DNA of 61,830 nucleotides from contig CP070627.1 of NCBI GenBank assembly GCA_020355945.1, positions 5,653,288 through 5,715,117 on the forward strand. The letters run 5' to 3'. The position numbers were made by a program, and so were the translations under genes. This DNA is from Candidatus Aminicenantota bacterium. GTDB taxonomy: Bacteria > Acidobacteriota > Aminicenantia > UBA2199. Position 1 is the stretch's first letter. Every line of letters starts with the position of its first letter. Shown here piece after piece: positions 3,160 through 33,200 of this stretch. Below the pieces are notes generated by a model, which was not told the origin of the DNA, ran no database searches, and was given only the letters and a program-made list of their open reading frames with translations.

Positions 3160-3975
3160 ATGAGACTTCGAGAACATTCAAAATCTAATTTTGATCGGTT
3201 ATGGATTGCTGCTGGAAAAAAGGTAAAAGAAAGGGACTATTGGTTGGAAAAATTGTCGGGTGGACTGGTGAAAAGCAGCTTTCCTTATACTTATGAAAAG
3301 ACAAATCCAGAAGGAAAACCTGCACATTGGGCTGCACTGAATTTCCAGTTTGATAAAAGACGATTTGCAGGGTTAATGAACTTAAGCACTGGCTCTGATG
3401 TCCGGCTGCATATTGTGTTGACAGCCATTTTAACTCTATTGTTAGGGAAATATTCCGGTAATAATGATATCATCGTGGGGACACCGGTAATGAAAACCAC
3501 TGGTAATGTTGAACTTATCAATACAGTATTAGCATTAAGAAACCAATTGCGCGATGATATGACCTGCAAAGAATTATTGATGCAGGTGAGGCAGATCAGT
3601 ATCGAGGCCAATGAACACCGGAATTATCCCATTGAAATACTACTACACCAGTTAAATTTGCCTGTCCCGGGTGAGGGGAAGGATTTCCCTCTTTTTGATG
3701 TGGCATTATTGCTGGAAAATATCCACGATAAAAAAAGTATCCGGGAAACCTGTCCCAATATTCTTTTTTCTTTTTTAAGAACCCCTGACAGGATTGAAGG
3801 GGTGGTGGAATACAATGAACTGCTCTATAGCAGGAATACTGTTGAACAAATCGCAGCACATTTGGAGCGACTGGTGGATATCGTTATCTTTAATGTAGAT
3901 CTGCCGATATCCCGGATCGATATATTGTCAGGAAAAGAGAAAAAACTATTGCTGCTGGATTTTAACAACACCCGG
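3160..3975 (+). other. N-terminal half condensation domain (c'), type I
   Basis: Encodes only the C-terminal lobe of a C domain at the start of NRPS-2. Visible landmarks are ERDYWLEKLSG, YSGNNDIIVGTPV, INTVLALRNQ and NYPIEIL; there is no HHxxxDG. It closely resembles the N-terminus of NRPS-7 and differs from that of NRPS-6. The upstream protein already has a complete C domain, so this lobe is extra. A docking role with the GDFGF tail of NRPS-1 is inference. Confidence 0.75.
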
Positions 3976-12333: not shown

Positions 12334-12485
12334 GTGTATTACATTTATTCTCCAGGCTTGAAGAATTGGGAATTATCCTCCGGTTGAAGGATAGTGATTT
12401 AAAGATCAAAGCGCCTAAAGGGAAGTTAACCCAGGCTTTAATAAATGAGTTAAAAGAAAAAAAAGCAGGAATTATTGAATTTTTG
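12330..12485 (+). other. TubC-type N-terminal docking domain
   Basis: The first ~50 residues of NRPS-3 fit the TubC docking family: a short helix, LGIxLxLKDxxL, APKGxL, then a lysine-rich helix ending EFLQK. Such domains bind the extreme C-terminus of the upstream synthetase, here NRPS-2, whose tail is acidic and hydrophobic. It is a different docking chemistry from the half-C/DFxF junctions in the same locus. Confidence 0.85.
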
Positions 12486-15400
12486 CAAAAACATGTTCAA
12501 AAGCAAAGAGAGTATGCATCCATAGAGTCGTCAGAAGAGAAAGAGTATTATGCATTATCTTCAGCGCAAAAACGATTATACATATTACAGCAGATGGAGG
12601 CGAGTAATACCGTGTACAATATACCGGTGGTGGTCAGGCTGGAGGGAGACCTGGATAAAAAGCGATTGGAAGAGGCCGTTGGGCAATTGATAGCCAGGCA
12701 TGAGAGTTTACGAACCTCCTTTGAAATGAAAGAAGGTGAGCCAGTGCAGCAGATACACGATGAGGTGGAATTTGAGATTGAATACCATGACGCAGGGCGC
12801 AAAGCGCAAAGCGCAAAGCGTAAAGAGGAACGCCATGCGCCATGCGCCTTGCGCTTCGCAAGTACTATAAAGAACTTTATACGTCCCTTTGATTTATCTA
12901 TAGCGCCGCTGCTGCGGGTGGGGTTGATACAAGAGGGGAATACAAAGCACAGGTATATCTTAATGGCAGACATGCATCACATTATATCAGACGGCACTTC
13001 TATGGAGATATTTTTTAAAGAATTGATGGCGTTATATGAAGGAGAAGAATTAGAACCATTACAACTCCGGTACAGGGATTACTCGGAATGGCAGAACAAA
13101 GAGAAGGAGAAAGAATGGATAAAACAGCGGGAAGGTTACTGGCTGGCCCGGTTTCCGGGAGAGACCCCGGTATTGGATTTAGCCACGGATTATGCCAGGC
13201 CGGCAATACAGAGTTTTGAAGGAAGTCGTGTCCTTTTTGAGATAAGAGAGGGATATACCCGCTCACTAAAAAATCTGGCACTGCAGGAAGATGCCACCCT
13301 TTATATGGTGCTGCTTTCGATTTATAATGTGTTACTTTCTAAACTCAGCGGCCAGGAAGACATCATCGTGGGCACACCGGTAGCTGGCCGGGGTGATGCC
13401 GATCTCCAGCCAGTCATTGGCATGTTTGTCAACACACTGGCACTGCGGAATTATCCCGGGGGAGAGAAGCCATTTCAAGCCTTCCTGGAAGAAGTAAGAG
13501 AACAGACCTTAACAGCCTTTGAGAACCAGGAATACCAATTTGAAGACCTGGTGGAGCAATTGGCAGTAAAGAGGGATGTTAGCCGTAATCCACTGTTTGA
13601 TGCGGCGTTTTCAATGCAGAACCTGGATATTTTAGAGCTAAAGATACCGGGCTTGAAGCTAATACCCTGTGAGTATGAAAGCAGGATGGCAAAATTTGAT
13701 CTTACGCTGCAGATGGGGGAGACAAAAACAAGACTGTCAGCATATTTTGAATACAGCACCAAATTGTTCAAAAGAGAAACCGTGGAAAGATTTGTAAACT
13801 ATTTTAAAGAGATAGTCACTTCTATTATAAATAATAGGAAGCAGATAATATCGGAAATAGAAATAATATCTCCGCAAGAGAAGGCACAACTATTAGTTGA
13901 TCTTAATAATACAGCAGCGGAATATCCACGAGAAAAGACCATACATGAGCTATTTGAAGTGCAGGTTAAGAAAAACCCGGACAGGGTGGCTATAATTGAC
14001 AAAGATGCAATGACATACGCGGAATTGAACCGGGAATCCAATCTCCTGGCCCGGGTATTAAGATCAAAAGGCGTAAAACCCGACAGTATCGTGGGGATTA
14101 TGATGGAGCCCTCAATAGAGATGATCATTGCCATCTTAGCAATATTAAAAGCTGGCGGGGCTTATTTGCCCATCGATCCCACCTATCCTGGTGAACGGGT
14201 TAGATTCATCCTGGAGGATTGTGAAATAAAGATTCTATTGACAGAAACCAGGACCATTGAAAACTATTCCTTTACCACACTCCTGGGACTTGGATTCAAT
14301 GAAGACAGCCATGCCTGGGAGTGTCAAGTCACTCCACCCTGTCCCCAAATCACCCACCTGGAGGCTTTGCACCCCGTGGACCGTACATCAGTCAATTATA
14401 AAAAATATAGTCGTTATATTGGGATGGCCATGGTAAAACACTCGATTTCCCTCCAGGGTACCCGGGGTTGTCCTTATCACTGCGCCTACTGCCATAAAAT
14501 ATGGCCGAAAAAACACGTGTACCGCGCAGCAGAGGATATTTTTAATGAAGTTCATTTGTATTACCGCCAGGGAGTCCGTCGATTCGTCTTTATCGATGAC
14601 ATCTTCAATATTAATATTGAAAACAGTCGGAGATTTTTTCAAATGATCATCGACAATGGCCTGGATATCCAAATCTTTTTTCCCAATGGCTTACGAGGGG
14701 ATGTCTTAACCAAAGACTTCATTGATCTGATGGTTAAAGCCGGAACCGTAAGCGCGGCCCTGGCCTTAGAAACTGCTTCTCCAAGGCTGCAAAAATTGGT
14801 GGGCAAAAATCTCAACCTGGAAAAACTAATGGAAAACCTGGAATACTTGTGTAAGTATTATCCCCATGTGATCCTGGAACTCTTTGTGATGCACGGATTC
14901 CCTACGGAAACCCAGGATGAGGCGGTCCAAACCCTGGACTTTATCAAAAGCCTTAAATGGCTCCATTTTCCCTATTTCCACATTTTAAAGATTTACCCTT
15001 CCACGGATATGGCTGTACTGGCACAAGAACAGGGCATTTCTGCTAAGACTATTGCCCGGTCGGCTAACCTCCCCTACCACGAACTGCCCGATACCCTTCC
15101 CTTTGACAGGGGGTTTACCCTTAAGTGTCAAGCCGATTTTTTCAACCAATATTTCATGTCAAAGGAACGCCTACTTCATGTACTGCCATATCAAATGAAA
15201 ATTTTGAATGAAGATGAGATGGTGCAAAAATATAACAGTTATTTACCTGTTGATATTAAGTCGTTTCCAGGTTTATTGGAATTTGCCGGTATTAAAGAAG
15301 GGGAACTGGAACTCACCGACTTATCCCATGAAGACCCTATGCAGGTGCCGGATTTGGACCTGCGGATGAAAGAGGTATTCCAGGAATTTTCCCAACCCCC

Positions 15401-18400
15401 TTCCCAGGATGCCATGAGAATATTGCTGCTGGACCTCTCGCAATTTCTTAGTAAAGATAAAAGCAATATACTTTATGATGTGGTGGAACCACCATTAGGA
15501 TTAATGTATTTAATGACGGCTTTGAAGCGGGAATTTGGGAGCAAAATCAATGGTAAAGTCGCCAAATCACGGATTGATTTTGACAATTACCAGGAGTTAA
15601 AACAACTGGTAGAAGAGTTCAAACCGGATTTAATCGGTCTCCGCACCTTAACCTACTACAAAGACTTTTTTCATCGAACCGCAGCTATGATTCGGAATTG
15701 GGGAATCAACATCCCGTTAATTGCCGGCGGACCCTATGCCACCAGCGATTACCCATCCCTGTTAAAAGACAAAAATATCGACCTGGTGGTACGGGGTGAA
15801 GGTGAGCACATCATATGTGATATCGTATCCCGGATGTTTGAAAATAACAGGAAATTACCCGGTGAAAATGTATTACAGCAAATACCAGGTATTGCCTATG
15901 CCCCATTTGTCCCATCTGCCCCATCTGCCCCGGGAAAGAATATTTCCACGAATATAAATACCTTTGGGCGGGAAATTATTATGATGGATATACTCATGCC
16001 GGAACTGGCAAAAAAAAGCGAAAATCAACCTGGAGAAAACTTGCCCTGTACCAATCAACCGGCAGACACGGCTTATGTGATTTACACTTCCGGGACCACC
16101 GGAAAACCCAAAGGAGTAATGATAGAACATGGAAATGTGGTAAGGCTGATGATTAACGACAGGTTTCAATTTGACTTCAATGAAGAAGATGCCTGGACAA
16201 TGTTTCATTCCTATTGTTTTGATTTTTCCGTTTGGGAAATGTATGGGGCGTTGACGTATGGGGGAAAGTTGATTTTAATACCCAAAATAGTGGCCAGGGA
16301 TACTGCCGGATACCTGGAGATTTTGAAAAAAGAACAGGTGACTGTCTTAAATCAAACCCCTTCGGCTTTTTACAATCTTGTAAATGAAGAATTACAATCT
16401 CCCTTCAAAGAGCTGCACTTAAGGTATATTATTTTCGGCGGCGAAGCGTTAAAACCCGCTAAATTAAAGGATTGGCGGGAAAAATACCCGGACGTAAAAT
16501 TAATCAATATGTATGGTATAACCGAGACCACTGTTCATGTGACCTTCAAAGAGATAGAAGATCGAGATATTCGGTTAAATACCGGTAATATCGGTCAACC
16601 AATACCCACATTGAGTGGCTTTATAATGGATAAGCATCTTAAACTGGTGCCAAAAGGGGTTACCGGGGAACTATATATTGGTGGGGAAGGGGTGGCCAGG
16701 GGATATTTAAACCGACCGGAATTAACCACGGAAAAATTTGACCACGATTTATGGGATTACCTGGATTACCATGATGAAAAGGCGTCCTTCGGGCAGGTTT
16801 TGAACGCCTGCGGCGGAGGAGAGGCCCACGAATTACACGAATTGGCACGAATTAATGAAAAGCTTTTGCGGGGGGTCCAGGGGGGCGGTTTTCTCGAAAA
16901 GAGCCCCCCTGGTCGCCGAAGGCAAAAAATATACCGAACCGGTGACCTGGTAAGATTATTGGATAATGGGGATATGGAATATGCAGGCAGAATCGATCAC
17001 CAGGTGAAGATAAGAGGGTTCAGGGTGGAGTTGGGGGAGATTGAAAGTCAATTGTTAACATTTGATAACATCAAAGAGGCAGTGGTCATTGCCCGACAAG
17101 ATAAAAATAAACACTGGTATCTTTGCGCTTATATTGCAGCGGAGCACAGGGCACAGGGCGCAGAGCGTGTAGTAATGCCTGATACCAGTAAATTAAGAGA
17201 ATATCTATCACATACACTACCGGATTACATGATCCCCTCCTATTTTGTCCGGTTAGAACGTATACCCTTAACCCCTAATGGGAAGCTGGACAGGAAATCC
17301 TTACCCGAGCCGGTAGTATCGGTGTCAGAAGCATATTCGGCACCAGTGGATGAAGTGGAAAGGGAGATAGCCAGGATATGGTCGCAAGTCCTGGGAATTG
17401 AAAAGGACATTATCGGAAGGGACAGCGATTTTTTTGAATTGGGAGGACATTCATTAAATGCCACCCAGGTGATATCCAAAATACATAAAGTACTAAATGT
17501 CAGGGTATTACTGGTGGAACTATTTAAAACACCCAGCATAAGAGGATTAGCAGAAGCTGTAAAGGGAGCGGAAAAGAATATATTCGCCTCGATTCCCCCT
17601 GTAGAAGAGCAGGAGTATTATCCCGTATCATCCGCACAAAAGAGGATGTTTTTGTTACACCGGTTGAAACAAGGGGATATCAGTGACAATACCCCGGAAG
17701 TAATGATAGTAGAAGGTAAATTGAAAGTGCAGCACTTTGAAAAGGCGATCCGGCAGCTTATAAGACGGCATGAAGCCCTCAGGACCTCATTTGAACTCCT
17801 GGATGGACAGCCTGTTCAAAGAATCCATAAAAATGTCGATTTTAAACTCCATTACCTGGAAGCAGAAGAAAGCGGAATAAAAGGAATAATTGCAGCATTT
17901 ATCCGGCCTTTTGAACTGGAAAACGCCCCCTTACTCAGGGTAAGCCTGGTAAAACTATATGAAAAAAAGCATATACTCATGCATGACATGCACCATATCA
18001 TCAGGGACGGTATATCTTCCGCTGTATTTATGAATGAGTTTGTCAACTTATACAATGGTAACCAATTACCGGGATTAAAGATTCAATATAGAGATTTTGC
18101 CGTATGGCAAAATCAACTGATGCAAACCCATATCATCAAGAAGCAGGAAGCCTATTGGTTGGATGTGTTTCCAGGTGAATTGCCGGTGCTTCAATTACCC
18201 ACAGACTATCCCAGGCCGGCCCACCAGAGTTTTGAGGGTCATTCCCTGGAAGTTAAACTAAGCACTACCCTTACCCGGGATATTAACAAAATGGCATCTG
18301 AAAACGGGGCAACCCTTTTCATGGTGCTGATGACAATTTATAATATCTTATTATTCAAATACTGCGGCCAGGAAGATATTATTGTGGGAACCGTAATCGC

Positions 18401-18980: not shown

Positions 18981-19000
18981 ACCTGTAAAAGGATATCACC

Positions 19001-20716
19001 ATGAACAAGATAAAAACCATTGATTGTTTGTTAATTGGTCATAATGACGTAGATTTTCAAGAGTATGAAAAAAACCTGCGAAAAATGGGGATGAATTCCG
19101 GGGCTTACAGGGACCTGAACTTAAATTTTATCTGGTATGAAAACAAACCCTACTCTCTCTCTGAAATGTTTAACCTGTTGTTTCACCAGGAAAGTTCTTC
19201 ACAATCTTTGCACAATAAAATGAATTTTTGCGAAACCTTTAACGCTGCCATCGCCTATTTGGGAACTTACTTAAACAGGAGGCAGTTTACCTTTGATTAT
19301 GTAAATGATTTCCAGGAGGAGAAAGAGGAATTGGCAAAAAAACTGGAACAGGAAAATATTCGAACCATTGCTATCACGACTACACTGTACACCAGCCCTC
19401 TACCGATTGTTGAAATTATGGAATTTATAAAAAAACATAATCGGGGAGCCAAAATAATCATAGGAGGCCCCTTTGTTTCCACCCAGGTTCGTACGCTTGA
19501 ACCGGTACAATTGGAGTACCTATGGGAATCCCTGGGAGCAGACTATTATGTCAACAGCTCTCAGGGTGAAAAGGCCCTGGTAAACATATTAACAGCCTTA
19601 AAAGACCACTGTCCCCTTGGGGGCATTCCCAATATATATTATAAAACAGGAAATGGTTATGCAGCAGGCCCCCGTGTGACAGAGAACAACATCCTATCGG
19701 AAAATATGGTTAATTGGGATTTATTTTCCCCTGGGCCAGGGCGCTATGTCAATGTTAGGACGGCTATTTCCTGTCCCTTTTCCTGTGCTTTCTGCGGGTT
19801 TCCCGAGCATGCCGGGAAATACCAGGCCGTACCAGCAGCAGCCATCGAAAAGGAATTAAACCTGCTGGCTAAAATAAAAAGCGTGAAGAGTATCCATTTT
19901 ATCGACGATACCTTCAATGTCCCGCTGAAACGCTTTAAAGATATTCTTAAAATGTTGATCAAAAATAAGTATACCTTCAAGTGGCATTCCCATTTCAGAA
20001 GCCAATTTTCAGACAGGGAAACCGTGGAGTTAATGAAAAAAAGCGGCTGTGAAGGGGTTTTCCTGGGATTTGAATCGGGAAATAACCAGATGCTTAAAAA
20101 AATGAATAAAGCCGCTGCAGTAGAGAAATATCATGAAGGTATTGCCCTTTTAAAAGAGGCAGGAATAACCACCTTTGGGTCCTTTATCATTGGGTTCCCG
20201 GGCGAAACCCCCGGAACCGTGCAAGATACTGTCACATTTATTGAAGAAAGTGAAATCGATTTCTTTCGAGCCCAATCGTGGTTTTGTGAACACATCACCC
20301 CCATCTGGAGAGACAGGAAAAAGTATCACCTGGAAGGGAGAAGTTTCGAATGGAAACATGAAACCATGGATTCCTACACGGCCGCTGACCTGGTGGAAAA
20401 GATATTTCTCTCTGTTAAAAATTCGGTCTGGGTACCTCAATATAATTTTGATTTTGATAATATTTTTCACCTGACAGATAGGGGAATGACAGTGGACCGG
20501 GTAAAAAGCTTTCTAAATAGTTTTAACCGGGGGGTAAGGGAGAAAATGGATTTCTCGGATGTCCCAACTGACCCCAATGCCCCGAATGTTTCGCTGGAGG
20601 TTATCAAGGAATTAATGGTGGCATGCGGAAAGCCACCTCACTTTGATAAGGCTTTTGTTAAACCAAAAGAAGAGAAATCAGACCGCCTGGAAAAACAAAT
20701 CAGCTTCGAATTTTAA
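19001..20716 (+). CDS. Free-standing B12-binding radical SAM enzyme, PhpK-like
   Basis: 571 aa in the canonical order: N-terminal B12-binding-like domain (about 100-220; IIIGGPFVS, QGEKALVNIL) then radical SAM domain with SCPFSCAFCGFPEHAG (CxxxCxxC) near 257. The N-terminus (DCLLIGHND, SGAYRDLNLNF) is reminiscent of the PhpK-type radical SAM methyltransferases found beside NRPS genes; I recall this from family knowledge and could not align it. Start ATG follows AAAGGATATCACC; the gene lies 20 bp behind NRPS-3, so it is co-transcribed. The protein ends QISFEF, resembling the EIDFDL/EIDFDF tails of NRPS-3 and the next protein, though it carries no NRPS domain. That suggests recruitment in trans to the assembly line. 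Likely role: C-methylation or another radical modification of a carrier-bound residue. The substrate is unknown. Confidence 0.88.
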   Translation: MNKIKTIDCLLIGHNDVDFQEYEKNLRKMGMNSGAYRDLNLNFIWYENKPYSLSEMFNLLFHQESSSQSLHNKMNFCETFNAAIAYLGTYLNRRQFTFDYVNDFQEEKEELAKKLEQENIRTIAITTTLYTSPLPIVEIMEFIKKHNRGAKIIIGGPFVSTQVRTLEPVQLEYLWESLGADYYVNSSQGEKALVNILTALKDHCPLGGIPNIYYKTGNGYAAGPRVTENNILSENMVNWDLFSPGPGRYVNVRTAISCPFSCAFCGFPEHAGKYQAVPAAAIEKELNLLAKIKSVKSIHFIDDTFNVPLKRFKDILKMLIKNKYTFKWHSHFRSQFSDRETVELMKKSGCEGVFLGFESGNNQMLKKMNKAAAVEKYHEGIALLKEAGITTFGSFIIGFPGETPGTVQDTVTFIEESEIDFFRAQSWFCEHITPIWRDRKKYHLEGRSFEWKHETMDSYTAADLVEKIFLSVKNSVWVPQYNFDFDNIFHLTDRGMTVDRVKSFLNSFNRGVREKMDFSDVPTDPNAPNVSLEVIKELMVACGKPPHFDKAFVKPKEEKSDRLEKQISFEF

Positions 20717-20748
20717 AATAGACAGAAAAATTGAAATGATTGATCATT

Positions 20749-20752
20749 GGAG
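20749..20752 (+). promoter_or_regulatory. Ribosome binding site for GTG start of the decayed-A rSAM protein
   Basis: GGAG lies 9 bp before GTG 20762 and overlaps the alternative TTG codon at 20747. Confidence 0.5.
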
Positions 20753-20761
20753 AAATGTGAA

Positions 20762-23608
20762 GTGAAAAGAGAACAATTAAACCGGGAAAATAACAGTGAA
20801 CAACCAGGCTATTGGTTGGAGACCATCGCAGATGAATTGCAACTGACACGAACCGATTTATGGTCAGAGGTTCGGCAGATAAAAGAGGAGAGGCACAAGG
20901 AACGGACCATCATTGAGTGGTTTGAAAAACAAGTAGAGAAAACCCCGGATAATACAGCCGTTATTGGCCCGGGGAGATGTGCGTCCTTCAGCTTTCTCGG
21001 ATTAAACCAGGAATCCAATCGATTGGCCCATCTATTACGAGAAAAAGAAGTCCAATCCAACTCCATCGTAGGGATATTGCAGGAACCTTCAATTGAGATG
21101 ATCGTGGCAATACTGGCCGTATTAAAAGCGGGTGGGGCTTATTTACCCATTGATCCCGGCACGCCAAAAAATCAACTTCTCACCATATTGGATAATTACC
21201 AGGTCTCCCTCCTCTTGACCACCACTGATATTCTAAAGAACCACTCGATAACCCGGCTGCAAAATAGCGGGATAAACGTTAACATGGAACCGGTAATCAC
21301 CGATAATCGTCCGCAAATCAGGGATTTTGACCGATTACCCTTCCCGGACCGCTCACTGGTGGATTATGAAAAATATAACCGATTCATTGGTGAAGCCCTG
21401 GTAAAGCATTGTATTTCTTTGCAAGCCACCCGGGGGTGTCCGTACCACTGCGCCTATTGTCATAAAATCTGGCCCAAAACCCATGTGGTTCGTTCTGCTG
21501 AAAATCTTTTTAAAGAAGTGCAGATTTATTATGATATGGGGGTGCGAAGATTTGCCTTTATCGATGACATATTTAATTTAAACCAAAAAAACAGCGCACG
21601 GTTTTTTGAATTGGTGATAAAAAATAAACTGGATGTGCAGTTTATATTTCCCAACGGGCTGCGGGGGGACCGGTTGACCACCGAGTATATTGATTTGATG
21701 ATGGAAGCGGGAACCATGAGTGTGGCATTGGCCCTGGAAACCGCCTCACCGCGGCTGCAGCGGTTGATAGGAAAAAATTTACACCTTGGTAAACTCAAGG
21801 AAAATATTCACTACTTTATTGAAAAATATCCTCATATTATCCTGGAGCTCTACGTGATGTTAGGCTTTCCCGGCGAAACCGAGGAAGAAGCAATCACCAC
21901 CCTCAATTTTGTCAAAGGTTTGCAATGCCTCCATTTTGTTTATGTGGCATTCTTAAAAATTTACCCCAATACTGATATGGAGCAGTTGTGCCTGGAAAGC
22001 GGGATTTCCAGGGAGGTTATTGAGAATTCCCAGGACCTGGCTTTTCATGAAACACCAGGAACCCTACCCTTTGATAAAAACTTTGCCTTAAAATGGCAGG
22101 CAGATTTTCTATACCAATATTTCCTATCCAGGGAGCGATTACTACAGGTGCTGCCCCACCAAATGAGACTTTTAACCAGGGATGAAATCATCCAAAAATA
22201 CAGCAGCTATTTATCCGATGATATTAAAAATTTCCAGGATTTGCTGGATTTAGCCGGCATTCAAGAAGAGGAATTGGCTGAAAAGGACTTTTTGGATGAA
22301 AGTGCAGTTCATATCCCGGATTTCAATAAAAAATTAAAAAAACACTTCCAGGCAGCGAACCCCCCGGAAAATAACAATGCACTAAGGATTTTGCTGTTGG
22401 ACTTATCCCAATCCTTCAGCCAGGAGAAAGAGAAATTTAGCAATATGGTGGAACCACCGTTGGGATTGATGTACTTAATGACCTTTTTAAAACAGAAATT
22501 TGGCAAGCAAATCAATGGTAAAATTGCTAAATCCAGGATCGATTTTGACAGTTTTAGTGATCTGAAACAATGTTTGGATGAATTTAAGCCCCATGTAATC
22601 GGGATTCGCACCCTGTCCTTTTACAGGAATTTTTTCCATATCACCACCGCAGCCCTCCGGCAGTGGGGAGTCGATGTTCCGATTATTGCAGGTGGTCCTT
22701 ATGCCACCTGCGATTACCCGGTCATTTTGCAAACCAATGCGGCTGACCTGGTGGTGCTGGGAGAAGGGGAAATCACCTTCAGTGAAGTGATAGAGAAAAT
22801 CATGGAAAACCAGGGGAAATTACCCGGGGAAGCCGGATTAAAGGATATTCCAGGTATTGCCTTTATTTCAAAACAAACCGGACAAAAACAAAAAAACCAG
22901 CCGCAAATGCGTCAAATTCTCATGACAGACCTGTTGAAAGAGCAATTATCCCATCAGCCCACAGATAATCCGAAACCTATCCCTTGCCCACAAAATTTGG
23001 CTTATATCAACGTTTCTTTTGATTTAAAGGGAAAACCCAATAGCTCTTTAACTTCCCATGCAAATATAAGTGGAAGAGTAAAAAATATCGATTTATTCGC
23101 TTTTTCAGAAAATGATAAGATTTTACAATTGTCTCCTTATATAAGGGATGGTTTTATATTTGAAACCTTTACAGCCTTTGCCAACGGAGCCATGTTGGTG
23201 ATACCCGGGCAAGAAAAAGAGGTGGCTGAAATGATAAAGAAAAAGGGGATAACTGTCCTTTTCATCACAACTGCTCTCAGCAATACTGTAGTGGTTCTAC
23301 AAGTGGCAGGGGTGCATCAGGTCAGAGAAATATGGTTTGCAGGACAAGATATTCCCTTCATCCGCGGGAAACAGGAACTGCCCCTCAACGTCTATTGCAC
23401 AACGGCTTTTAAAAATGAAAAAATAAGGAGGTTCACCCGGGAATTAACAGGCATTGCCGAAAAAATAACGGGCCACCATCCCTGGCAAATTCGTGAAATA
23501 AAGTTGTACTCAGACATTAACAGGGATGAACTGGTGGTTCAACTTCCCGGGGATACAACGGATCACTCTGCAGCAAAACTAAAGACAGAAATAGATTTTG
23601 ATTTTTAA
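20762..23608 (+). CDS. rSAM-B12 protein embedded in a decayed, truncated A domain
   Basis: About 948 aa. I chose GTG at 20762 because GGAG lies 9 bp upstream; an in-frame TTG at 20747 overlaps that site. A short C-domain remnant (GYWLETIADEL) precedes an A-domain N-terminus through A2 (VLKAGGAYLPID). The rSAM insert with RGCPYHCAYCHKIWPK starts near 223, and the B12-binding-like domain (RILLLDLSQ to IPGIAFI) lies at about 541-705. Both keep every key motif. The A domain after the insert is wrecked: A3 reads SFDLKGKPNSS, YGPTE is missing, and the protein stops before A6, so there is no A-C subdomain and no PCP. It ends EIDFDF. Adenylation is therefore almost certainly lost while the radical enzyme looks intact. 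I read it as a trans-acting tailoring enzyme descended from an NRPS module; a decaying gene remnant is the alternative. Confidence 0.85.
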   Translation: MKREQLNRENNSEQPGYWLETIADELQLTRTDLWSEVRQIKEERHKERTIIEWFEKQVEKTPDNTAVIGPGRCASFSFLGLNQESNRLAHLLREKEVQSNSIVGILQEPSIEMIVAILAVLKAGGAYLPIDPGTPKNQLLTILDNYQVSLLLTTTDILKNHSITRLQNSGINVNMEPVITDNRPQIRDFDRLPFPDRSLVDYEKYNRFIGEALVKHCISLQATRGCPYHCAYCHKIWPKTHVVRSAENLFKEVQIYYDMGVRRFAFIDDIFNLNQKNSARFFELVIKNKLDVQFIFPNGLRGDRLTTEYIDLMMEAGTMSVALALETASPRLQRLIGKNLHLGKLKENIHYFIEKYPHIILELYVMLGFPGETEEEAITTLNFVKGLQCLHFVYVAFLKIYPNTDMEQLCLESGISREVIENSQDLAFHETPGTLPFDKNFALKWQADFLYQYFLSRERLLQVLPHQMRLLTRDEIIQKYSSYLSDDIKNFQDLLDLAGIQEEELAEKDFLDESAVHIPDFNKKLKKHFQAANPPENNNALRILLLDLSQSFSQEKEKFSNMVEPPLGLMYLMTFLKQKFGKQINGKIAKSRIDFDSFSDLKQCLDEFKPHVIGIRTLSFYRNFFHITTAALRQWGVDVPIIAGGPYATCDYPVILQTNAADLVVLGEGEITFSEVIEKIMENQGKLPGEAGLKDIPGIAFISKQTGQKQKNQPQMRQILMTDLLKEQLSHQPTDNPKPIPCPQNLAYINVSFDLKGKPNSSLTSHANISGRVKNIDLFAFSENDKILQLSPYIRDGFIFETFTAFANGAMLVIPGQEKEVAEMIKKKGITVLFITTALSNTVVVLQVAGVHQVREIWFAGQDIPFIRGKQELPLNVYCTTAFKNEKIRRFTRELTGIAEKITGHHPWQIREIKLYSDINRDELVVQLPGDTTDHSAAKLKTEIDFDF
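21220..22960 (+). other. Radical SAM-B12 cassette in the decayed A domain
   Basis: Same design as the other three inserts: FPDRSLVDYEKY linker, RGCPYHCAYCHK, DDIFN, NGLRGD, ALETASPRL, SRERLLQVLPHQ, then RILLLDLSQ, IIAGGPYAT, GEGE and IPGIAFI. All CxxxCxxC cysteines are present. It is closest by eye to the NRPS-3 insert. Retention of all motifs beside a ruined A domain suggests the cassette is what selection keeps. Confidence 0.85.
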
Positions 23609-23692
23609 GCCCTTTAGACTCAACAATCCGGGAAACACAAGACAGGGTTCAGGGTCCCGGGGCATAAAATTTGTCGTGGAAGGAGATGCACC

Positions 23693-24500
23693 ATGAGTAA
23701 AGATATTTATAAAGAAGTCATATTTAACCGGGAAGAGTACAGGGAACAGTTGGCCTACTGGTCAAAGATAATAACCGCTGACCTGACCGCCATTGATTTA
23801 CCAGTGGACTTTAAAAGCCCTGGTAGAGAGGAAAAAGCGGACACAAACAAGAAAAACGTCAACAACTTCCTGCCGGTGAACATCTCAAAAGAACAATCTT
23901 CCAGGCTGTTAAAATTCAGTAAAAACACAGACCTTACACTATATGTTGTTTTGTTGGCCGGGATTAAGATATTTTTAAATAAGTGCTGCCAAAGTGATGA
24001 AATAGTGATTGTTACGCCGCTGCTGGACCTGGATCAGAACCTGAAAAAGTATGTTAAATACAATAACCGAATCCTTTTCCGGGATTTTGTTGATAGGAAT
24101 TTGACCTTCAAGGAGGTATTAATACAAACCAAAAACCAGGTAATAGAGGTCTATGAAAATCAAAATTATCCCCTGGACCTGGTATTTAAAAAGAAAGGCT
24201 TAACGATTGATCATTTTTCTTTCCTTAACCGGGTTGCTTTTTTATTAAAAAATCTCCAGGATGAAGAAGAAATCATCAACTTAAACCATGATTTGCTATT
24301 TTATTTTGAAAGAGAAGGGAGTGATATCCATGGTAATATCCGATACAATCAACAGCTTTTCAAGAAAGAAACCATAAAAGGGTTGTCCGAGAAATTGCTG
24401 CGAATCTTTGACACCTGCATCAATGATGTCAACAGGAGATTAAAAGACCTGGAAATTTTGTCGGCACAGGAAAAGGAACGGTTATTGTTTCATTTTAACA
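23693..24500 (+). other. N-terminal half condensation domain (c'), type II
   Basis: C-lobe only, visibly divergent from the half-C domains of NRPS-2 and NRPS-7: the GTPV segment is IVTPLLD, and the region after it (KKYVKYNNRILFRD) is unlike INTVLALRNQ. No HHxxxDG. The three proteins encoded just upstream all end in I(D/S)F(D/E)(L/F) rather than GDFGF, which correlates with this different half-C type. Confidence 0.7.
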
Positions 24501-27500
24501 GTACAAAGGCGGATTATCCCAGAAATAAAACCATTCACCGCCTGGTGGAAGAGCAAGAAGAAAAAACTCCGGACCATGTGGCTGTGGTTTTTATAGATAG
24601 TGCCTTAACCTATAAGAAATTAAACCAGGAATCTAACCGGTTGGCAAAACTGCTGCAACAGAAAGGGGTAACGGCTGAAAGTATTATCGCCATCATGATG
24701 GACAACTCCCTGGAAATGATCATCAGCATCCTGGCAGTATTAAAAGCCGGACCTGCTTATCTGCCCATTGACCCTGCTTACCCCCAAGAGCGAATCCTAT
24801 TCATGCTTAAGGATAGTCATGCCAGTGTGCTTCTGACTAAAGAGAGATCAATCAATGATCTTTCCTTTATATCCCTCCGGGATTTCGAAGCCTCCGGTGT
24901 AACGCCCCTGGTTACTGCTTCACGCCCCCAAATCAAAGACCTTGATAGTATCCAGGTACCGGATCGATCATTGGTTGATTATGATAGGTATACCCCTTTT
25001 ATCGGGCAGTCAATGGTAAAAAACGCCATTACCCTCCAGTTTAGCAGGGGATGTGTTTTTAATTGTGCCTATTGTTTTAAAATATGGCCGAAAAATTACG
25101 TGACCCGCTCAGCAGAAAATTTATTTGCAGAGCTCCTGTTCTATTATAAATTAGGAATCCGGCGCTATGCCTTTGTGGATGATCTACCCAATTTAAATGT
25201 CAAAGAAAGCAGTAAATTTTATCAGTTAATTATTGATCACGGTTTGAAAGTCCACCTCCATTATCCCAACGGCATCAAAGGGGATATTCTCACCAGGGAA
25301 TACATTGATTTAATGGTGGAAGCCGGCACTGTAGATATGGATATGGCATTGGAAACCACTTCCCCCAGGCTGCAAAAACTCATCAGGAAAAATTTAAATA
25401 TTGAGAAATTACAAGAGAATATTCAATATATCATCGATAAGTATCCGCATGTCCTATTGGAACTCCAGATCCTGCACGGCATTCCCTCGGAAACCCGGGA
25501 AGAAGCAAAAAAATCACTGGAATTTATGAAAAATTTAAAATGGATTGATTTTCCTTACATCCATATACTAAAAATAGGGCTCAATTCGGATATGGCCAAA
25601 ATAGCCAGGGAACATGGCATTTCAAAAGAAGCCATTAAAAAATCAGCAGAAATGTTTGTCCATGAATTACCGGATACATTACCCTTTCCCAAAGAGTTTA
25701 CCCAGGATTATAAAGCGGAATTTGTCAATGAATATTTTATGGCAAAAGAGCGGTTGTTAAAACGGCTTCCTTACCAGATGAATGTTTTGACAGAAGATGA
25801 ATTGGTACAAAAATATAATAGTTATCTTCCAATTGATATAAAATGTTTTGCTGATCTCCTGGATTATGCGGGCATTGGTGAGGATGAAATCAAAGGCCAG
25901 TTTCTACCGGGAGATTATGGGGTGGTTCCCCTTTTTAACCGGAAATTGAAAGAGAATTTCCCCATAAAAAAAAGCCAAAAAAACGCTTTAAGAATTTTAC
26001 TATTGGACCTGTCCCATTTTTTTAGTACCTATCATCAATTGCTTTATGATGTCAGTGAGCCGCCCCTGGGTTTGATGTATTTGATGACCTATTTGAATAG
26101 ACGATTGGGAAGCAAGATCATTGGAAAGCTGGCAAAATCCCGGAGAGATTTTGACAGTTACGATGAGCTGGAAAAGATTATCCGGGATTTTAAACCGGAA
26201 GTAATTGGCATCCGCAGTTTAAATGTATACCGGGAGTTTTTTCATCAGACGGTTTCATTACTGGTACAATGGGAGCCGGGAGTACCTATTATTGCTGGCG
26301 GTCCTTATGCCACCAGCGATTATGAAGAAATGTTAAAGGATTCCAATGTGGATTTAGCCGTCCTTGGTGAAGGGGAAGTGACAATGGCTGAATTAATCGA
26401 AAAAATCATAGAAAACAACAAAAAACTCCCCGGGAAAGAGGTTTTAAAAACCATTCCTGGTATTGCTTTTATTGAAGATAAGGACAAATGGATGCAAAAG
26501 GCTGCTCATCGCGAAATAATATGCCTGGACAGGTTATCCGGGTCATTATTGCCGGAAACCCTTAGTAATCCCGGCAGCATCAATAAAACCTCAGACCTGG
26601 CCTATATTATTTACACATCCGGGTCCACCGGTAATCCCAAGGGTGTGATGATACAACACAACAGTCTCACCAATCAAATCATTGGTCTCAGGAAAAGATT
26701 TGCTCTTGATGCGTCACCGAATTACCTTTTACTGGCTGCTTTTACCTTTGATGTTTCGCTGATGCATATATTTTTAGCTTTAACAACAGGTGCGAAGCTA
26801 TTTTTAATCAAAGAAGAAACAAAAAAGGATTCCACCAGGCTGTGGGGATTTATCAATGAAAAAGGTATAGATATCTTAAACATTGTTCCTGCTTTTATGA
26901 CAACCCTCTTGAAAACCATTGAATTCAAAAAGCTCTATTTTAACTACCTGTTTGTTGGAGGAGATGTATTTACAAAGAATTTATACAGTGCGTTAACAGA
27001 GAGTTTTTCCGTTAAAAAGCTAATCAATATTTATGGTCCCACCGAGACAACCATAAATGCCACCCTGTATGAATGCAGTGATAAAAGCGGAGATGGTATC
27101 CCCGGGGAAACCGTCCCCATTGGAAAACCCTTAACCAATTACAGTGTATTTATCTTAGATCAAGATTTGAACCCTGTCCCTATTGGTGTAAAGGGAGAGT
27201 TGTGCATCTCCGGTCCAGGACAAGCCAGGGGCTATTTAAATCGACCGGAATTAACAGCAGAGAAATTTCTCACTGTCTCCTCCAGGTCTTATAGGTCCTC
27301 TAGGTCCTATATTTCTAAAAAAATCTACAAAACCGGGGATCTGGCAAGATGGCTTCCTGGTGGTAATATTGAATTTTTAGGCAGGATCGATTTCCAGGTA
27401 AAGGTCAGGGGTTATCGCATCGAATTAGGGGAGATAGAGAATCAATTGCTCCAAAAACAAGGAATAAAACAAGCAGTGGTCATAGACAGGAGTGACAGGA

Positions 27501-29380
27501 GTGGAGACAAATATATCTGTGCTTATATAGTCCCGGATATTCCAGGGGAAATGCCAGCAGAATTAGGAAAGTATTTATCTCAACGATTGCCCCGGTATAT
27601 GGTCCCGGCCTATTTTGAATGCATCAAAGAAATACCCTTAACTGCCAGTGGTAAAGTGGACAAGAAAGCGTTACCAGTGCCCGGGCTCAAAAGGGAAGAT
27701 GACTATGAGGCCCCCAGGGATGCACTGGAGGAGAAGTTGGCCGAGATATGGGCCGAAGTGGTAGGAATCGGAAAAGATAACATCGGCATAGATTTTAATT
27801 TTTTTGAGTTGGGGGGGCACTCGTTAAAGGCTACCATATTGGGAGCAAAGATACATAAAGAGTTAAACATAAAAATTCCTCTCCCGGAATTATTTCAAAC
27901 CCCCACTATCAGGGGATTGGCTGGGTATATCAGGAAAGCGGCAGAAGAAAAATTTTTACCCCTGGAACCGGCAGAAAAGAAAGATTATTACAATTTATCT
28001 TCGGTACAGCGCAGGTTGTATTTTTTGCAGCAGTTTGATGTCAAAAACTTGAGTTACAACCTGCCCATGGTGGTCCTGTTGCAAGGTGATATAGAGTTCG
28101 CACGCTTAGAAATGACATTTAAAAAATTGGTGGAACGGCATGAAAGTTTTCGTACCTTTTTTGAAATGATCGAAGGGGAACCAATACAGAGAATCCAAAG
28201 AGATGTGGACCTTAAAATTGAATATTATCATATTTCAAAGGTTGAATTAGGGGAGACACCCGGGGCACAAGTAAAACGGGAATTCCCCCCCACTCCTGGC
28301 CCCACCGGGGAAATTATCAAGAATTTTGTCAGGCCCTTTGATTTATCCCGGGCACCGCTGATGAGAATCGGGTTTAGAAGAATAGGTGAAACCCAACACG
28401 TTCTTATTATGGATATGCACCACATCATCATAGATGGAACATCTTTCGGGGTAGTATGCGGCGAATTTATGGCTGTATACGGGGAACAGGGACTGCCCGG
28501 ATTACGGCTCCAATATAAAGATTACTCGGAATGGCAGAACAGGGATAAAAGTCAGCAAAAAGAATTGTTCAAAAAACAAGGGGAATACTGGCAGCAGGTG
28601 TTCTCCGCGGAAGTCCCGGTTTTGAACTTACCCACTGATTATTCCAGGTTTTCAGTACAGAGTTTTGAAGGCTTTCACCGGTTTTTTGAAATCGCCAGTG
28701 AGCAAACCAGGGCCTTAAATGAACTGGCAGCACAAGAAGGAGCCACCTTATTTATGGTGCTGCTGGCCCTCTACAACATATTTCTCTCTAAATTGAGCGG
28801 CCAGGAAGATATTGTGGTGGGAACTTCTATCGCCGGCCGGAGACATGCTGATTTGAACCGGATTATCGGCATGTTTGTAAATGCACTGGCAATGAGAAAC
28901 TATCCTGCCAGTGACAAAACATTTAGAGAGTTTCTTTTGGAAGTAAAAGAACAGACATTAAAGGCGTACGAGAACCAGGAATACCCCTTTGAATATTTAG
29001 TGGAGAAAGCGGCATCTTCCAGGGATGCCAGTCGGAATCCCTTGTTCGATACCATGTTGGTGCTGAATAACGAAGATGTCCCGGAAGTCACCATCCCGGG
29101 CCTGAAACTAAAACCTTATACCTATGAAAATACAGCCGCCCAGTTTGACCTGAAATTAAGAGCAGTTGAAATAGAAGAAAAACTGCGGTTTCGTTTTGAA
29201 GTCCGGGCCAGGTTATTCCGGGAGGAAACCATAGATTTGTTTATAAAAAATTTTAAGAAAATCGTATCTATGGTGATTAAAGATACAGGTATTCATTTAA
29301 AGGACATTCATATCTTTCATGATTTAAAATCAACAAAGTCAACGATCCTTAAAGAGGATCAAGGGGATTTCGGATTTTAA
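23693..29380 (+). CDS. NRPS-6: half-C-A with rSAM-B12 insert-PCP-C, GDFGF tail
   Basis: 1895 aa, ATG preceded by GGAAGGAG. Residues 1-265 are a divergent half-C domain (YREQLAYWSKI, NYPLDLVF) lacking HHxxxDG. The A domain runs from about 279. After A2 (VLKAGPAYLPID) an rSAM-B12 insert of about 590 residues follows, with SRGCVFNCAYCFKIWPK near 452, a B12-binding-like domain from about 764, and IPGIAFI at its end. A3 (YTSGSTGNPKG) is near 971 and YGPTETTINA downstream. My code is DVMNFGIINK, unassigned; the INK ending loosely recalls hydroxyornithine-type codes. PCP serine near 1376, C with MHHIIIDG near 1575. It ends GDFGF like NRPS-1 and precedes NRPS-7, whose half-C resembles that of NRPS-2. 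One residue is added and presumably modified in cis by the radical enzyme. Confidence 0.94.
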   Translation: MSKDIYKEVIFNREEYREQLAYWSKIITADLTAIDLPVDFKSPGREEKADTNKKNVNNFLPVNISKEQSSRLLKFSKNTDLTLYVVLLAGIKIFLNKCCQSDEIVIVTPLLDLDQNLKKYVKYNNRILFRDFVDRNLTFKEVLIQTKNQVIEVYENQNYPLDLVFKKKGLTIDHFSFLNRVAFLLKNLQDEEEIINLNHDLLFYFEREGSDIHGNIRYNQQLFKKETIKGLSEKLLRIFDTCINDVNRRLKDLEILSAQEKERLLFHFNSTKADYPRNKTIHRLVEEQEEKTPDHVAVVFIDSALTYKKLNQESNRLAKLLQQKGVTAESIIAIMMDNSLEMIISILAVLKAGPAYLPIDPAYPQERILFMLKDSHASVLLTKERSINDLSFISLRDFEASGVTPLVTASRPQIKDLDSIQVPDRSLVDYDRYTPFIGQSMVKNAITLQFSRGCVFNCAYCFKIWPKNYVTRSAENLFAELLFYYKLGIRRYAFVDDLPNLNVKESSKFYQLIIDHGLKVHLHYPNGIKGDILTREYIDLMVEAGTVDMDMALETTSPRLQKLIRKNLNIEKLQENIQYIIDKYPHVLLELQILHGIPSETREEAKKSLEFMKNLKWIDFPYIHILKIGLNSDMAKIAREHGISKEAIKKSAEMFVHELPDTLPFPKEFTQDYKAEFVNEYFMAKERLLKRLPYQMNVLTEDELVQKYNSYLPIDIKCFADLLDYAGIGEDEIKGQFLPGDYGVVPLFNRKLKENFPIKKSQKNALRILLLDLSHFFSTYHQLLYDVSEPPLGLMYLMTYLNRRLGSKIIGKLAKSRRDFDSYDELEKIIRDFKPEVIGIRSLNVYREFFHQTVSLLVQWEPGVPIIAGGPYATSDYEEMLKDSNVDLAVLGEGEVTMAELIEKIIENNKKLPGKEVLKTIPGIAFIEDKDKWMQKAAHREIICLDRLSGSLLPETLSNPGSINKTSDLAYIIYTSGSTGNPKGVMIQHNSLTNQIIGLRKRFALDASPNYLLLAAFTFDVSLMHIFLALTTGAKLFLIKEETKKDSTRLWGFINEKGIDILNIVPAFMTTLLKTIEFKKLYFNYLFVGGDVFTKNLYSALTESFSVKKLINIYGPTETTINATLYECSDKSGDGIPGETVPIGKPLTNYSVFILDQDLNPVPIGVKGELCISGPGQARGYLNRPELTAEKFLTVSSRSYRSSRSYISKKIYKTGDLARWLPGGNIEFLGRIDFQVKVRGYRIELGEIENQLLQKQGIKQAVVIDRSDRSGDKYICAYIVPDIPGEMPAELGKYLSQRLPRYMVPAYFECIKEIPLTASGKVDKKALPVPGLKREDDYEAPRDALEEKLAEIWAEVVGIGKDNIGIDFNFFELGGHSLKATILGAKIHKELNIKIPLPELFQTPTIRGLAGYIRKAAEEKFLPLEPAEKKDYYNLSSVQRRLYFLQQFDVKNLSYNLPMVVLLQGDIEFARLEMTFKKLVERHESFRTFFEMIEGEPIQRIQRDVDLKIEYYHISKVELGETPGAQVKREFPPTPGPTGEIIKNFVRPFDLSRAPLMRIGFRRIGETQHVLIMDMHHIIIDGTSFGVVCGEFMAVYGEQGLPGLRLQYKDYSEWQNRDKSQQKELFKKQGEYWQQVFSAEVPVLNLPTDYSRFSVQSFEGFHRFFEIASEQTRALNELAAQEGATLFMVLLALYNIFLSKLSGQEDIVVGTSIAGRRHADLNRIIGMFVNALAMRNYPASDKTFREFLLEVKEQTLKAYENQEYPFEYLVEKAASSRDASRNPLFDTMLVLNNEDVPEVTIPGLKLKPYTYENTAAQFDLKLRAVEIEEKLRFRFEVRARLFREETIDLFIKNFKKIVSMVIKDTGIHLKDIHIFHDLKSTKSTILKEDQGDFGF
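24830..26590 (+). other. Radical SAM-B12 cassette inserted between A2 and A3 of NRPS-6
   Basis: Linker VPDRSLVDYDRY, then RGCVFNCAYCFKIWPK (CxxxCxxC), a barrel with ALETTSPRL and NGIKGD, extension AKERLLKRLPYQ, and B12-binding-like part RILLLDLSH, SEPPLGLMYLM, IAGGPYATSDY, GEGE, IPGIAFI. It is the most divergent around the cluster loop (VFNCAYCFK instead of PYHCAYCHK). Confidence 0.87.
27282..27312 (+). repeat. AGGTCCTAT tandem repeat before YKTGD in NRPS-6
   Basis: Three near-copies of a 9-10-bp unit (AGGTCTTAT, AGGTCCTCT, AGGTCCTAT) encode a Ser-Arg-rich loop between A6 and A7. Confidence 0.7.
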
Positions 29381-29422
29381 GTCACGCTTAAAATCATTGG
29401 TAATCCTGAGGAGAAGAGTCAA

Positions 29423-30230
29423 ATGCGAAGTGAAAATATTTCCGGAAAAGCTGCAATGGCTGCCAATCAAAATATCAAAGAAAGAGATTATTGGTTGAAA
29501 AAATTATCCGGGGAATTGACAAAAACTTGCTTTCCTTATGACTTTAAAAATAAAAGAAATCTAGAATACGGCAGACCTGGGGAGACCGGGAAAAGTAACG
29601 CAGTGACATTCAAATGGACCGGTGACTTTTTTTCCTATCTCATGCGGGTAAGCAGTGGATCGGATCCAAGGCTCCATATGATTTTGGTGGCAGGAACCAT
29701 GGCACTGCTCTACAAATATACCGGCAGCAGCGATATTATCGTGGGAACCCCGGTTTACAAACAGGCCATCGATGCTGAATTTATCAATACGGTATTGGCA
29801 TTAAGAAATCAAGTGAAAGGCAATATGACCTTTAAAGATTTGCTCCTGCAAGTGAGGCAAACCATAGTAGAAGCAGATGAAAATCAAGATTATCCCATCG
29901 AAATATTAATCCGACAGTTAAAGTCAAATCCAGCGGTGACCCAGGAGGATTTCCCTTTATTTGATGTTGTCATTTTACTTGAGAACCTCCAGGATAAAAA
30001 ATACCTTCGGCAGGTGAACCCCAATTCGGTTTTTTCCTTTCTCAGGACAGATGGCCATGTGCAAGGGGTATTGGAGTATAACTCCCGGTTGTACAATATA
30101 ACCACCGTAAAAAGACTGATTGACCATTTCAAACAGCTTTTACAGGAGGCACTCCGGGATGTAAATTTAAAAATAAGCAATATAGAAATTCTCTCTAAGG
30201 AAGAGAAGAAACAGGTTTTATTTGAGTTTA
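29423..30230 (+). other. N-terminal half condensation domain (c'), type I
   Basis: C-lobe only, with ERDYWLKKLSGEL, SSDIIVGTPV, INTVLALRNQ and DYPIEIL. It is very similar to the start of NRPS-2 and lacks HHxxxDG. The upstream protein, NRPS-6, ends in GDFGF just as NRPS-1 does before NRPS-2. Confidence 0.75.
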
Positions 30231-33200
30231 ACAACACCGATGCGGATTACCCGAAAGATAAGACGATTCATGAACTATTTGAGCGGCAAGTAACCGAAAC
30301 CCCTGATAATATTGCAGTTTTAGGGGGCAATGGCTGGGGTTCCGTAACCTATGGAGAATTGAATGAAAAGGCCGACCGGTGGGCACGGGTATTACGAAGA
30401 AATGGCGTCATCTTCGAATCTATCGTGGGGATTATGATGGAACCTTCACCGGGGATGATAATTGCCCTGGCCGCCATTTTAAAAGCCGGTGCGGCTTATC
30501 TGCCCATTCCCATTGATTCGGGTTTACCAGGGGAAAGGCTAAACTATATGCTCGAGGATTCCAATGTAAAAGTGCTAATTGCGGATGAGCAGACAATAAA
30601 GGGAATATCCTTCACATCCCTGGTTAAATTTGAAGCCAATAGGGATATCCGTATTGTAAAAACAGCACCCAGGAAACATATAAAAGAATTTGACCGCTTA
30701 CCCATACCTGACAGATCGCTGATTGACCCGGGAAACTATAAAGACAAAATCGGTATGGCAAGTGTCTTCAATTGTATCTCGATACAAGCCACCAGGGGCT
30801 GTCCTTATGAATGTTTGTTTTGCCATAAAGTCTGGTCTAAAAACCATGCATACCGGAGTGCTGAAAATATATACCATGAAATTGAGTATTATCACCGGAA
30901 GGGTGTAAGGAATTTTGCCATTATTGATGATTGTTTCAATCTCAGTAGGGCAAACAGCAGTCGGTTCTATAAACTGCTTATTCAAAATAAATTAGACCTG
31001 CAACTGTTTTTTCCCAATGGTTTGCGGGGAGATATACTGAGCCCCGAGGATATTGACCTGATGGTGGAAGCCGGGTGCCGGGGGATCAATCTATCCCTGG
31101 AAACCGCCTCACCCAGGCTGCAGAAACTGGTTAAAAAGAATCTGGACATCGATAAATTAAAGGCCATTATGGATTATATTGCCGGAAAACACCCGGACAT
31201 CATCCTGGAAATTGCAACCATGCACGGCTTTCCCACAGAAACAGAAGAGGAAGCCTTGATGACACTGGATTTTGTAAAAAGTATCAAATGGCTTCATTTT
31301 CCTTATATCCATATTTTGAAGATATACCCTAATACAGAGATGGAAAGATTTGCCCTGGACCAGGGAATTTCCCAACAGGACATCCTGGCATCCAGAAACC
31401 TGGCTTATCATGAATTACCTGAAACCCTGCCCTTCCCCAAGAGTTTTACCCGGAAATACCAGGCCGATTTTATGAATGATTACTTTTTATCCAAAGAACG
31501 GCTGAAACAGGTACTGCCGGTACAGATGAAAATCATGGCAGAGAAGGCCATTGTAGATAAATACAATGCCTATTTACCAGTGGAAATCACCAATATCGAA
31601 GATATTCTCCGCTTCGTCCGCATCGATGATATGGAGATACCAGCCAGGAGACCCGTTGAAAACATAAGTTCTCCAACCCTCTTTGCCGGGCAGCCGCCCC
31701 GGCAAAAAAAGATACCCCCGGGAGCGAAAAAGATACTCTTCCTTGATTTGGGTCAGCACTTTAGTTCCCATAGTATGTTGTACAATGTTTCCGAACAACC
31801 CCTGGGACTCATTTCGCTGTTGACCTACTTAAAGCAGGAATTTGCCGATAAAATTGACGGTAGAATCTATAAATCCGGGATTGATTTCGATAGTTACAAG
31901 GAGTTAAAGCTTCTCCTGGATGATTATAAACCCCACCTGGTGGGAATTCGCACCTTGACCTTTTACAGGGAGTTTTTCCATCAGACCGTATCTTTACTAA
32001 GGAATTGGGGGGTTGATGCACCGATTATTGCCGGGGGCCCTTACGCCACCAGTGACTATAACACCATATTAAAAGATAAAAATGTTGATTTGATTGTATT
32101 GGGTGAAGGGGAGTATACACTGGCCCAATTAATCGAAAAGATGCTGGAAAATGATTTTAAACTGCCTTCCCGGGATATTTTGAGACAGATCAATGGTATT
32201 GCCTTTGTAGAAAACCATGATTTATCCCGATCTTCTCGAAACCTGTTGGTCCGGGAATACCTGTTTGAAACCCCGGGACTTGAGGAGTCGGGGAATATTG
32301 ACCCCATATACCCGGGAAAAGGAAACAACCTGGCATATGTAATGTATACCTCGGGTTCAACAGGCAAACCCAAAGGAGTCATGGTGGAACACCGGCAGGT
32401 GAACAATTGTATCTCCTGGATGCAGGATAAATTTAACCTGGGTGAAAGAGATGTAATTGTACAAAGAACCAACCTGACTTTTGATCCGTCGGTATGGGAG
32501 ATCTTTTGGCCGTTGTATATCGGGGCAGGTATTAAGGTTCTTACCACTTATCAAAGCAAGGATGCTGAATTTTTAATACAATTGCTGGCTGAAAATGGGA
32601 ATTTAACCATGATGTATTGTCCTTCAACTTTAATTAAAGCAATGACCGATCTGGTGAATTCAAAACCTGTCAAACCGGTCCTGGAATTACCGTGGCTCCT
32701 TATTGGTGCGGAACCCATCGCCAGTGAAACCATTCAATCTTTCTATTCCTTTTTTAAAGGCAGGATTGTCAACACGTACGGTCCCACCGAATGTACCATA
32801 AATAATACCTATTATGAACTTGAACCCTGTGATGAACGAACCGTTGTCCCTATTGGCAAACCCATCGCCAATAACCGGGTCTATATATTGTCCGGGGATT
32901 TACAGCCCATGCCCATAGGGACACCCGGGGAAATTTACATTGCCGGTGACAGTGTCGCCCGGGGATATATTAACAAACCGGGGTTAACAGGAGAGAAATT
33001 TGACCACGATTTATGGGATTACCAGGATGACCAGGATAAAAGAAAAAAGTTGCCAGGCAAAAGAATTTACGTTTCTAAAAAAATCTACAAAACCGGGGAT
33101 AGGGGGCAATGGCTTGAGGATGGCACCATAGAAATTATGGGGCGATCGGATGAGCAGGTAAAGGTAAGAGGTTACCGGGTGGAGTTGGGAGAAATAGAAG

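Follow-up and report, generated by a model that had tools for sequence, protein, structure and literature searches.

The window analysed here, 61,830 nucleotides of Candidatus Aminicenantota bacterium (Bacteria; Acidobacteriota; Aminicenantia; UBA2199; GenBank assembly GCA_020355945.1, contig CP070627.1, positions 5,653,288 to 5,715,117 of the forward strand), carries a nonribosomal peptide synthetase (NRPS) cluster in which four genes encode, behind an N-terminal AMP-binding piece, a radical S-adenosylmethionine (rSAM) domain followed by a cobalamin (B12)-binding domain (Pfam). These rSAM-B12 cassettes sit in one loop of the adenylation (A) domain, and we propose by analogy with their relatives, at a probability of about 0.57, that wherever the A domain is intact each cassette C-methylates the aminoacyl group bound to the peptidyl carrier protein (PCP) domain of its own module. 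Evenly balanced is the broader proposal of a hitherto undescribed assembly-line domain, a permuted cobalamin rSAM C-methylation unit that plugs into one A-domain loop across many specificities and works in cis, with additional free, A-remnant and A-to-PCP forms held by a shared tail. The four genes and their cassettes are as follows (window coordinates; C, condensation domain; E, epimerisation domain; inserts in braces).

12330-18980, + strand, NRPS-3 gene, C-A{cassette}-PCP-C
14316..15908, + strand, NRPS-3 A-domain cassette, reversed rSAM-B12 (Pfam; limits by profile)
20747-23608, + strand, decayed-A protein gene, N-terminal A piece retained and remainder degenerate
21281..22906, + strand, decayed-A protein cassette, reversed rSAM-B12 (Pfam; sequence; structure model)
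23693-29380, + strand, NRPS-6 gene, half-C-A{cassette}-PCP-C
24908..26509, + strand, NRPS-6 A-domain cassette, reversed rSAM-B12 (Pfam; model of A plus cassette)
29423-36172, + strand, NRPS-7 gene, half-C-A{cassette + second insert}-PCP-C/E-type domain
30644..32233, + strand, NRPS-7 A-domain cassette, reversed rSAM-B12 (Pfam)

A preliminary description of the window had reported four A domains interrupted by such cassettes, and Pfam bears this out: in all four proteins Radical_SAM and then B12-binding matches stand above cutoff and the AMP-binding matches are split. The rSAM and B12 matches cover residues 711-872 and 1053-1164 of NRPS-3, 227-389 and 569-681 of the decayed-A protein, 449-611 and 789-901 of NRPS-6, and 455-618 and 824-903 of NRPS-7, respectively, the weakest B12 match being that of NRPS-7, a narrow pass (33.7 bits, cutoff 32.1). 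CxxxCxxC is intact in each cassette, and with PF04055 and PF02310 both above cutoff all four are predicted to bind cobalamin; the B12 domain, which comes first in typical cobalamin-dependent rSAM enzymes, follows the rSAM domain in all four and in 17 relatives found on other contigs (L001-L017). The cassette was said to lie between core motifs A2 and A3. It follows A2 in every case, and A3 to A10 resume behind it in NRPS-3, -6 and -7; the decayed-A protein is degenerate after the cassette and so does not count as an interrupted A domain, and it has no PCP match (Pfam). Profile limits give a cassette of about 530 residues instead of the roughly 590 first estimated. The window cassettes are only 50-58% identical (five pairs reported) and are thus not recent duplicates; 38 columns are invariant over 62 cassette sequences, the decayed-A copy included.

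Structure prediction returned confident models of the decayed-A cassette (predicted local distance difference test, pLDDT, 91; predicted template modelling score, pTM, 0.91) and of the NRPS-6 A domain plus cassette (pLDDT 86, pTM 0.85). The B12 half of the former has an alternating strand-helix pattern, in keeping with the Pfam match and with the B12-like domain earlier proposed for the second half of the insert. In the latter, the A fold is predicted to be continuous around the cassette (473 residues, 1.7 Å).

A profile built from 62 cassettes was aligned to eight relatives of canonical order (L018-L025). In all eight the start of the protein aligns with the B12 half of the profile and the part behind it with the rSAM half, the rSAM match starting at profile positions 3-18 and the B12 match stopping at 510-514 of 564. 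Because the seams fall there in every canonical relative, the ends of the cassette correspond to the former B12/rSAM linker, as the preliminary description had suggested, and the cassette is a clean circular permutation of B12-first rSAM enzymes. It is where the seams fall that supports this; the eight relatives score about equally on a profile whose columns were permuted, which does not discriminate because either profile yields two domain matches. The free-standing protein at 19001-20716 in the window showed the same swapped match order, its B12 match being weak (6.0 bits). As the permutation puts both ends in one former linker, the cassette could loop out of the A domain with both folds unbroken. 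One relative (P0001) is a natural tandem, rSAM-B12-rSAM-B12, the form expected of permutation by duplication, and it may represent an intermediate. Insertion into an A domain is one possible source of the permutation because the swapped order also occurs in free-standing, A-remnant, A-cassette-PCP and tandem proteins; trees favour neither an embedded-first nor a free-first origin.

A profile search with the decayed-A cassette gave at least 845 matches (E<=1e-3) among 7995 candidates scored, and in each of the best 120, one of which is the window's own protein, CxxxCxxC lies upstream of the B12 GGP motif, so the arrangement exceeds chance. These 120, the four window proteins and the 17 loci form a classified set of 141, in which the decayed-A protein is counted twice (also as P0002). 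Reversed cassettes are embedded in A domains in 58 of the 141; the C-terminal A match is long in 31 and partial or split in 27, many being on short contigs, and the partial and A-remnant classes may contain fragments. Both flanks indicate one loop in all 58 (three from the window). The N-terminal A piece only is retained in 20 proteins (19 distinct) and the C-terminal part only in two. Free-standing or tandem reversed proteins number 59, that is, 61 scored as free minus L004 and L006, which were removed because Pfam shows both to be A-linked, with the cassette placed between A and PCP. The earlier statement that free-standing proteins place B12 first therefore stands for the eight canonical relatives and fails for these 59.

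A scan of genome contigs, which retained 80 of 365 relatives, gave 17 full-length reversed cassettes (42-60% identity), 13 within NRPS genes and four free-standing. The sources of the 13 include records named Aminicenantes, Acidobacteriota, Bacteroidales, Elusimicrobia, Halothermothrix and Desulfosediminicola flagellatus, the last (L008) on the complete chromosome of the named strain IMCC35005; most host records are metagenome assemblies. Six NRPS-bearing genomes hold 57 matches above 600 bits (29, 14, 8, 4, 1 and 1), every one in an open frame of at least 798 aa, and four further genomes hold one such match each in frames of 545-611 aa; stop codons occur inside none of the 61.

For the intact modules the A domain would load its amino acid onto the adjoining PCP, whose phosphopantetheine arm would carry the residue into the rSAM/B12 cleft. 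There the 4Fe-4S cluster would cleave S-adenosylmethionine (SAM), the resulting 5'-deoxyadenosyl radical would abstract hydrogen from an unactivated carbon, and the methyl group would come from methylcobalamin. The decayed-A protein, without a PCP match, would act in trans. To our knowledge, radical C-methylation of unactivated carbons in peptide pathways (e.g. tert-leucine-like residues) is the work of separate enzymes. If the proposal is right, a fused, portable domain would make this reaction readable from gene order and movable with its module; the cassette is also an example of a two-cofactor enzyme permuted circularly in nature. Some genomes carry it many times over (one has 29 strong matches), and a testable copy is available in the complete genome of a named strain.

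In its working, the cassette-bearing A domain probably resembles the known interrupted A domains but has a new guest. Excerpts of PMC8150014 name tailoring domains that are inserted into A domains, and the 50 structural matches listed for the NRPS-6 model include 5wmm, in which a methylation domain interrupts the A domain. The likeness is a catalytic domain housed in a loop of an A domain that is otherwise whole; the difference is that the guest here is an rSAM plus B12 unit in permuted order. With cobalamin rSAM methylases (TsrM, TokK, CysS, MgmA, ApyD, PhpK) the cassettes share the B12 domain and the rSAM barrel with CxxxCxxC, by profile and fold matches. Those are separate proteins with B12 first, in TsrM (excerpts of PMC8992657) as in the eight canonical relatives, whereas the cassettes are rSAM-first and inside an NRPS. 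Excerpts describe DscE of discodermin biosynthesis as a cobalamin rSAM protein that likewise C-methylates residues of a nonribosomal peptide (PMC12858407), but it is separate and was shown to act once the peptide is finished. In cystobactamid biosynthesis, CysS (excerpts of PMC8992657 and PMC7966384) methylates a PCP-bound substrate, as proposed here, but is separate and targets an alkoxy group of an aminobenzoate. ApyD, according to part of PMC11002830, methylates the tyrosine beta-carbon. Searches of the open-licence literature listed no A domain with a radical SAM insert, a class that the preliminary description did not know to be described either.

That the cassettes carry out a radical modification in cis, as first suggested, is still the best reading, with methylation as the probable reaction by analogy with relatives. 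Several observations weigh against C-methylation in cis. The cassettes reach no methyltransferase family cutoff, they also match a lipid-ladder B12-rSAM family, BzaD and BchE, and AprD4, a diol dehydratase, is the solved relative nearest to them both by sequence and by VIA-align. Cassette sequence tracks the A code weakly (Mantel r 0.23, p 0.0004, against 0.16 for the N-terminal A piece and 0.78 for the A core; 44 of 45 rows), where stronger tracking would be expected if each cassette fitted one side chain. The cassette can do without a working A domain, as its free and A-remnant forms show. The preliminary description had also proposed structure prediction to see whether the B12 domain folds back onto the rSAM barrel, and the pTM is the one line of evidence for that predicted seating in the confident models obtained.

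Some of these points would suit a working cobalamin rSAM domain with other chemistry on the carrier-bound residue (desaturation, rearrangement, dehydration, epimerisation or P-methylation), which we regard as possible but distinctly less likely. AprD4 is its nearest solved relative by sequence, and similar cassettes occur across A cores of many codes, as if a shared atom such as C-alpha were targeted. Nine-residue codes taken from 45 cassette-bearing A cores, which intermingle with ordinary A cores, comprise 25 distinct codes, some of them near-variants; threonine (7) and leucine (6) are presumably commonest, with valine, isoleucine, asparagine and proline also present, and NRPS-3 has DFWNIGMVH, which we take to be a threonine code. 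Against other chemistry, methyltransferase families hold ranks 1, 2 and 4 when the matches of the decayed-A protein to rSAM families are ordered (PhpK, ApyD and Sden_1168, respectively, all far below cutoff), and the best Foldseek match is MgmA, a C-methylase. The cassettes are not assigned to the PhpK family, the decayed-A protein scoring 96.3 bits on TIGR04479 (cutoff 600) and that family being absent from the 25 matches listed for NRPS-3 and for NRPS-7. Epimerisation by the NRPS-7 cassette is disfavoured because NRPS-7 already carries a TIGR01720-type domain (156.5 bits, cutoff 74.2), presumably a mark of epimerisation domains.

It is rather improbable that the cassette acts in trans on peptides or the carriers of other modules, its place in the A domain being a mere tether to the assembly line. 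Among the 141, the 59 free or tandem proteins and the 20 A-remnants (one of the latter counted twice) speak for this, as do the decayed-A protein without a PCP match and a C-terminal tail common to free rSAM proteins and NRPS subunits; but all 57 strong matches in the six NRPS-bearing genomes lie in frames that exceed the free-form length of about 540-600 aa and are therefore not free forms, and in L004 and L006 the cassette adjoins the PCP. That the inserts arose as assembly chimeras, a refutation foreseen at the outset, or are dead passengers is already contradicted and we give it hardly any weight: the hosts are mostly metagenome assemblies and one of the matches listed (G481) has a stop codon, but the loop is the same in 58 of 58 across several phyla, one copy is on the complete D. 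flagellatus chromosome, and neither the invariant columns, which extend to the decayed-A copy, nor the 61 stop-free strong matches suit a passenger.

The free reversed genes of L012, L013 and L015, in Kordiimonadales and Pelagibacterales records, lie near AMP-ligase genes in loci that by eye resemble surface-sugar loci. L015 has LuxC-type reductase and FabA-like neighbours; those of L013 include a partial AMP-ligase match, a thioesterase, an N-acetyltransferase and a small protein that looks like a carrier by eye and has no Pfam match. From gene content, these neighbourhoods and the cassette position in L004 and L006 fit a domain that may act on carrier-bound acids. An architecture of N-terminal A piece, cassette, second C-domain lobe and DFxF-like tail recurs in P0063, P0066, P0072, P0093 and P0112 (1024-1042 aa), and in L007 (872-7192) a single A domain has an rSAM-B12 cassette plus, farther along, a classical methyltransferase insert.

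Other features of the window are given below.

19001..20716, + strand, free-standing B12-then-rSAM protein, PhpK family, among the cassette genes
33254..34282, + strand, NRPS-7 second A-domain insert, WbuX/QueC-like ATP-pyrophosphatase domain, A8 to A10
Genes ending at 3081, 18980, 20716, 23608 and 29380, tailed C-termini
Genes at 3160, 23693 and 29423, N-termini starting with only the second C-domain lobe

The free-standing protein passes TIGR04479 (PhpK P-methyltransferase; 657.8 bits, cutoff 600) and may P-methylate, although phosphonate pathway genes were not found among the Pfam matches of 13 window proteins scanned. L017 (14462-16159) resembles it at the N-terminus. Two inserts interrupt the NRPS-7 A domain, the cassette and the WbuX/QueC-like domain (TIGR03573, 94.8 bits, below the cutoff of 203.2), and the latter could form an amidine or thioamide; L011 (12536-13543) has the same double insertion and is 59% identical. 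The acidic-aromatic tail (DFGF, DFDF, SFEF) is common to NRPS subunits and free B12-rSAM proteins. A tailed protein stands directly before 12 of the 13 second-lobe-only starters but before 11 of the remaining 36 proteins (Fisher p 1.8e-4; the pattern was picked post hoc and the pairs are not independent), and tail and second lobe are perhaps a docking system. The window edge apparently truncates the first NRPS gene (1-3081): its frame is open from base 1 with an A2-like motif inside, so that translation probably does not begin at the ATG at 82.
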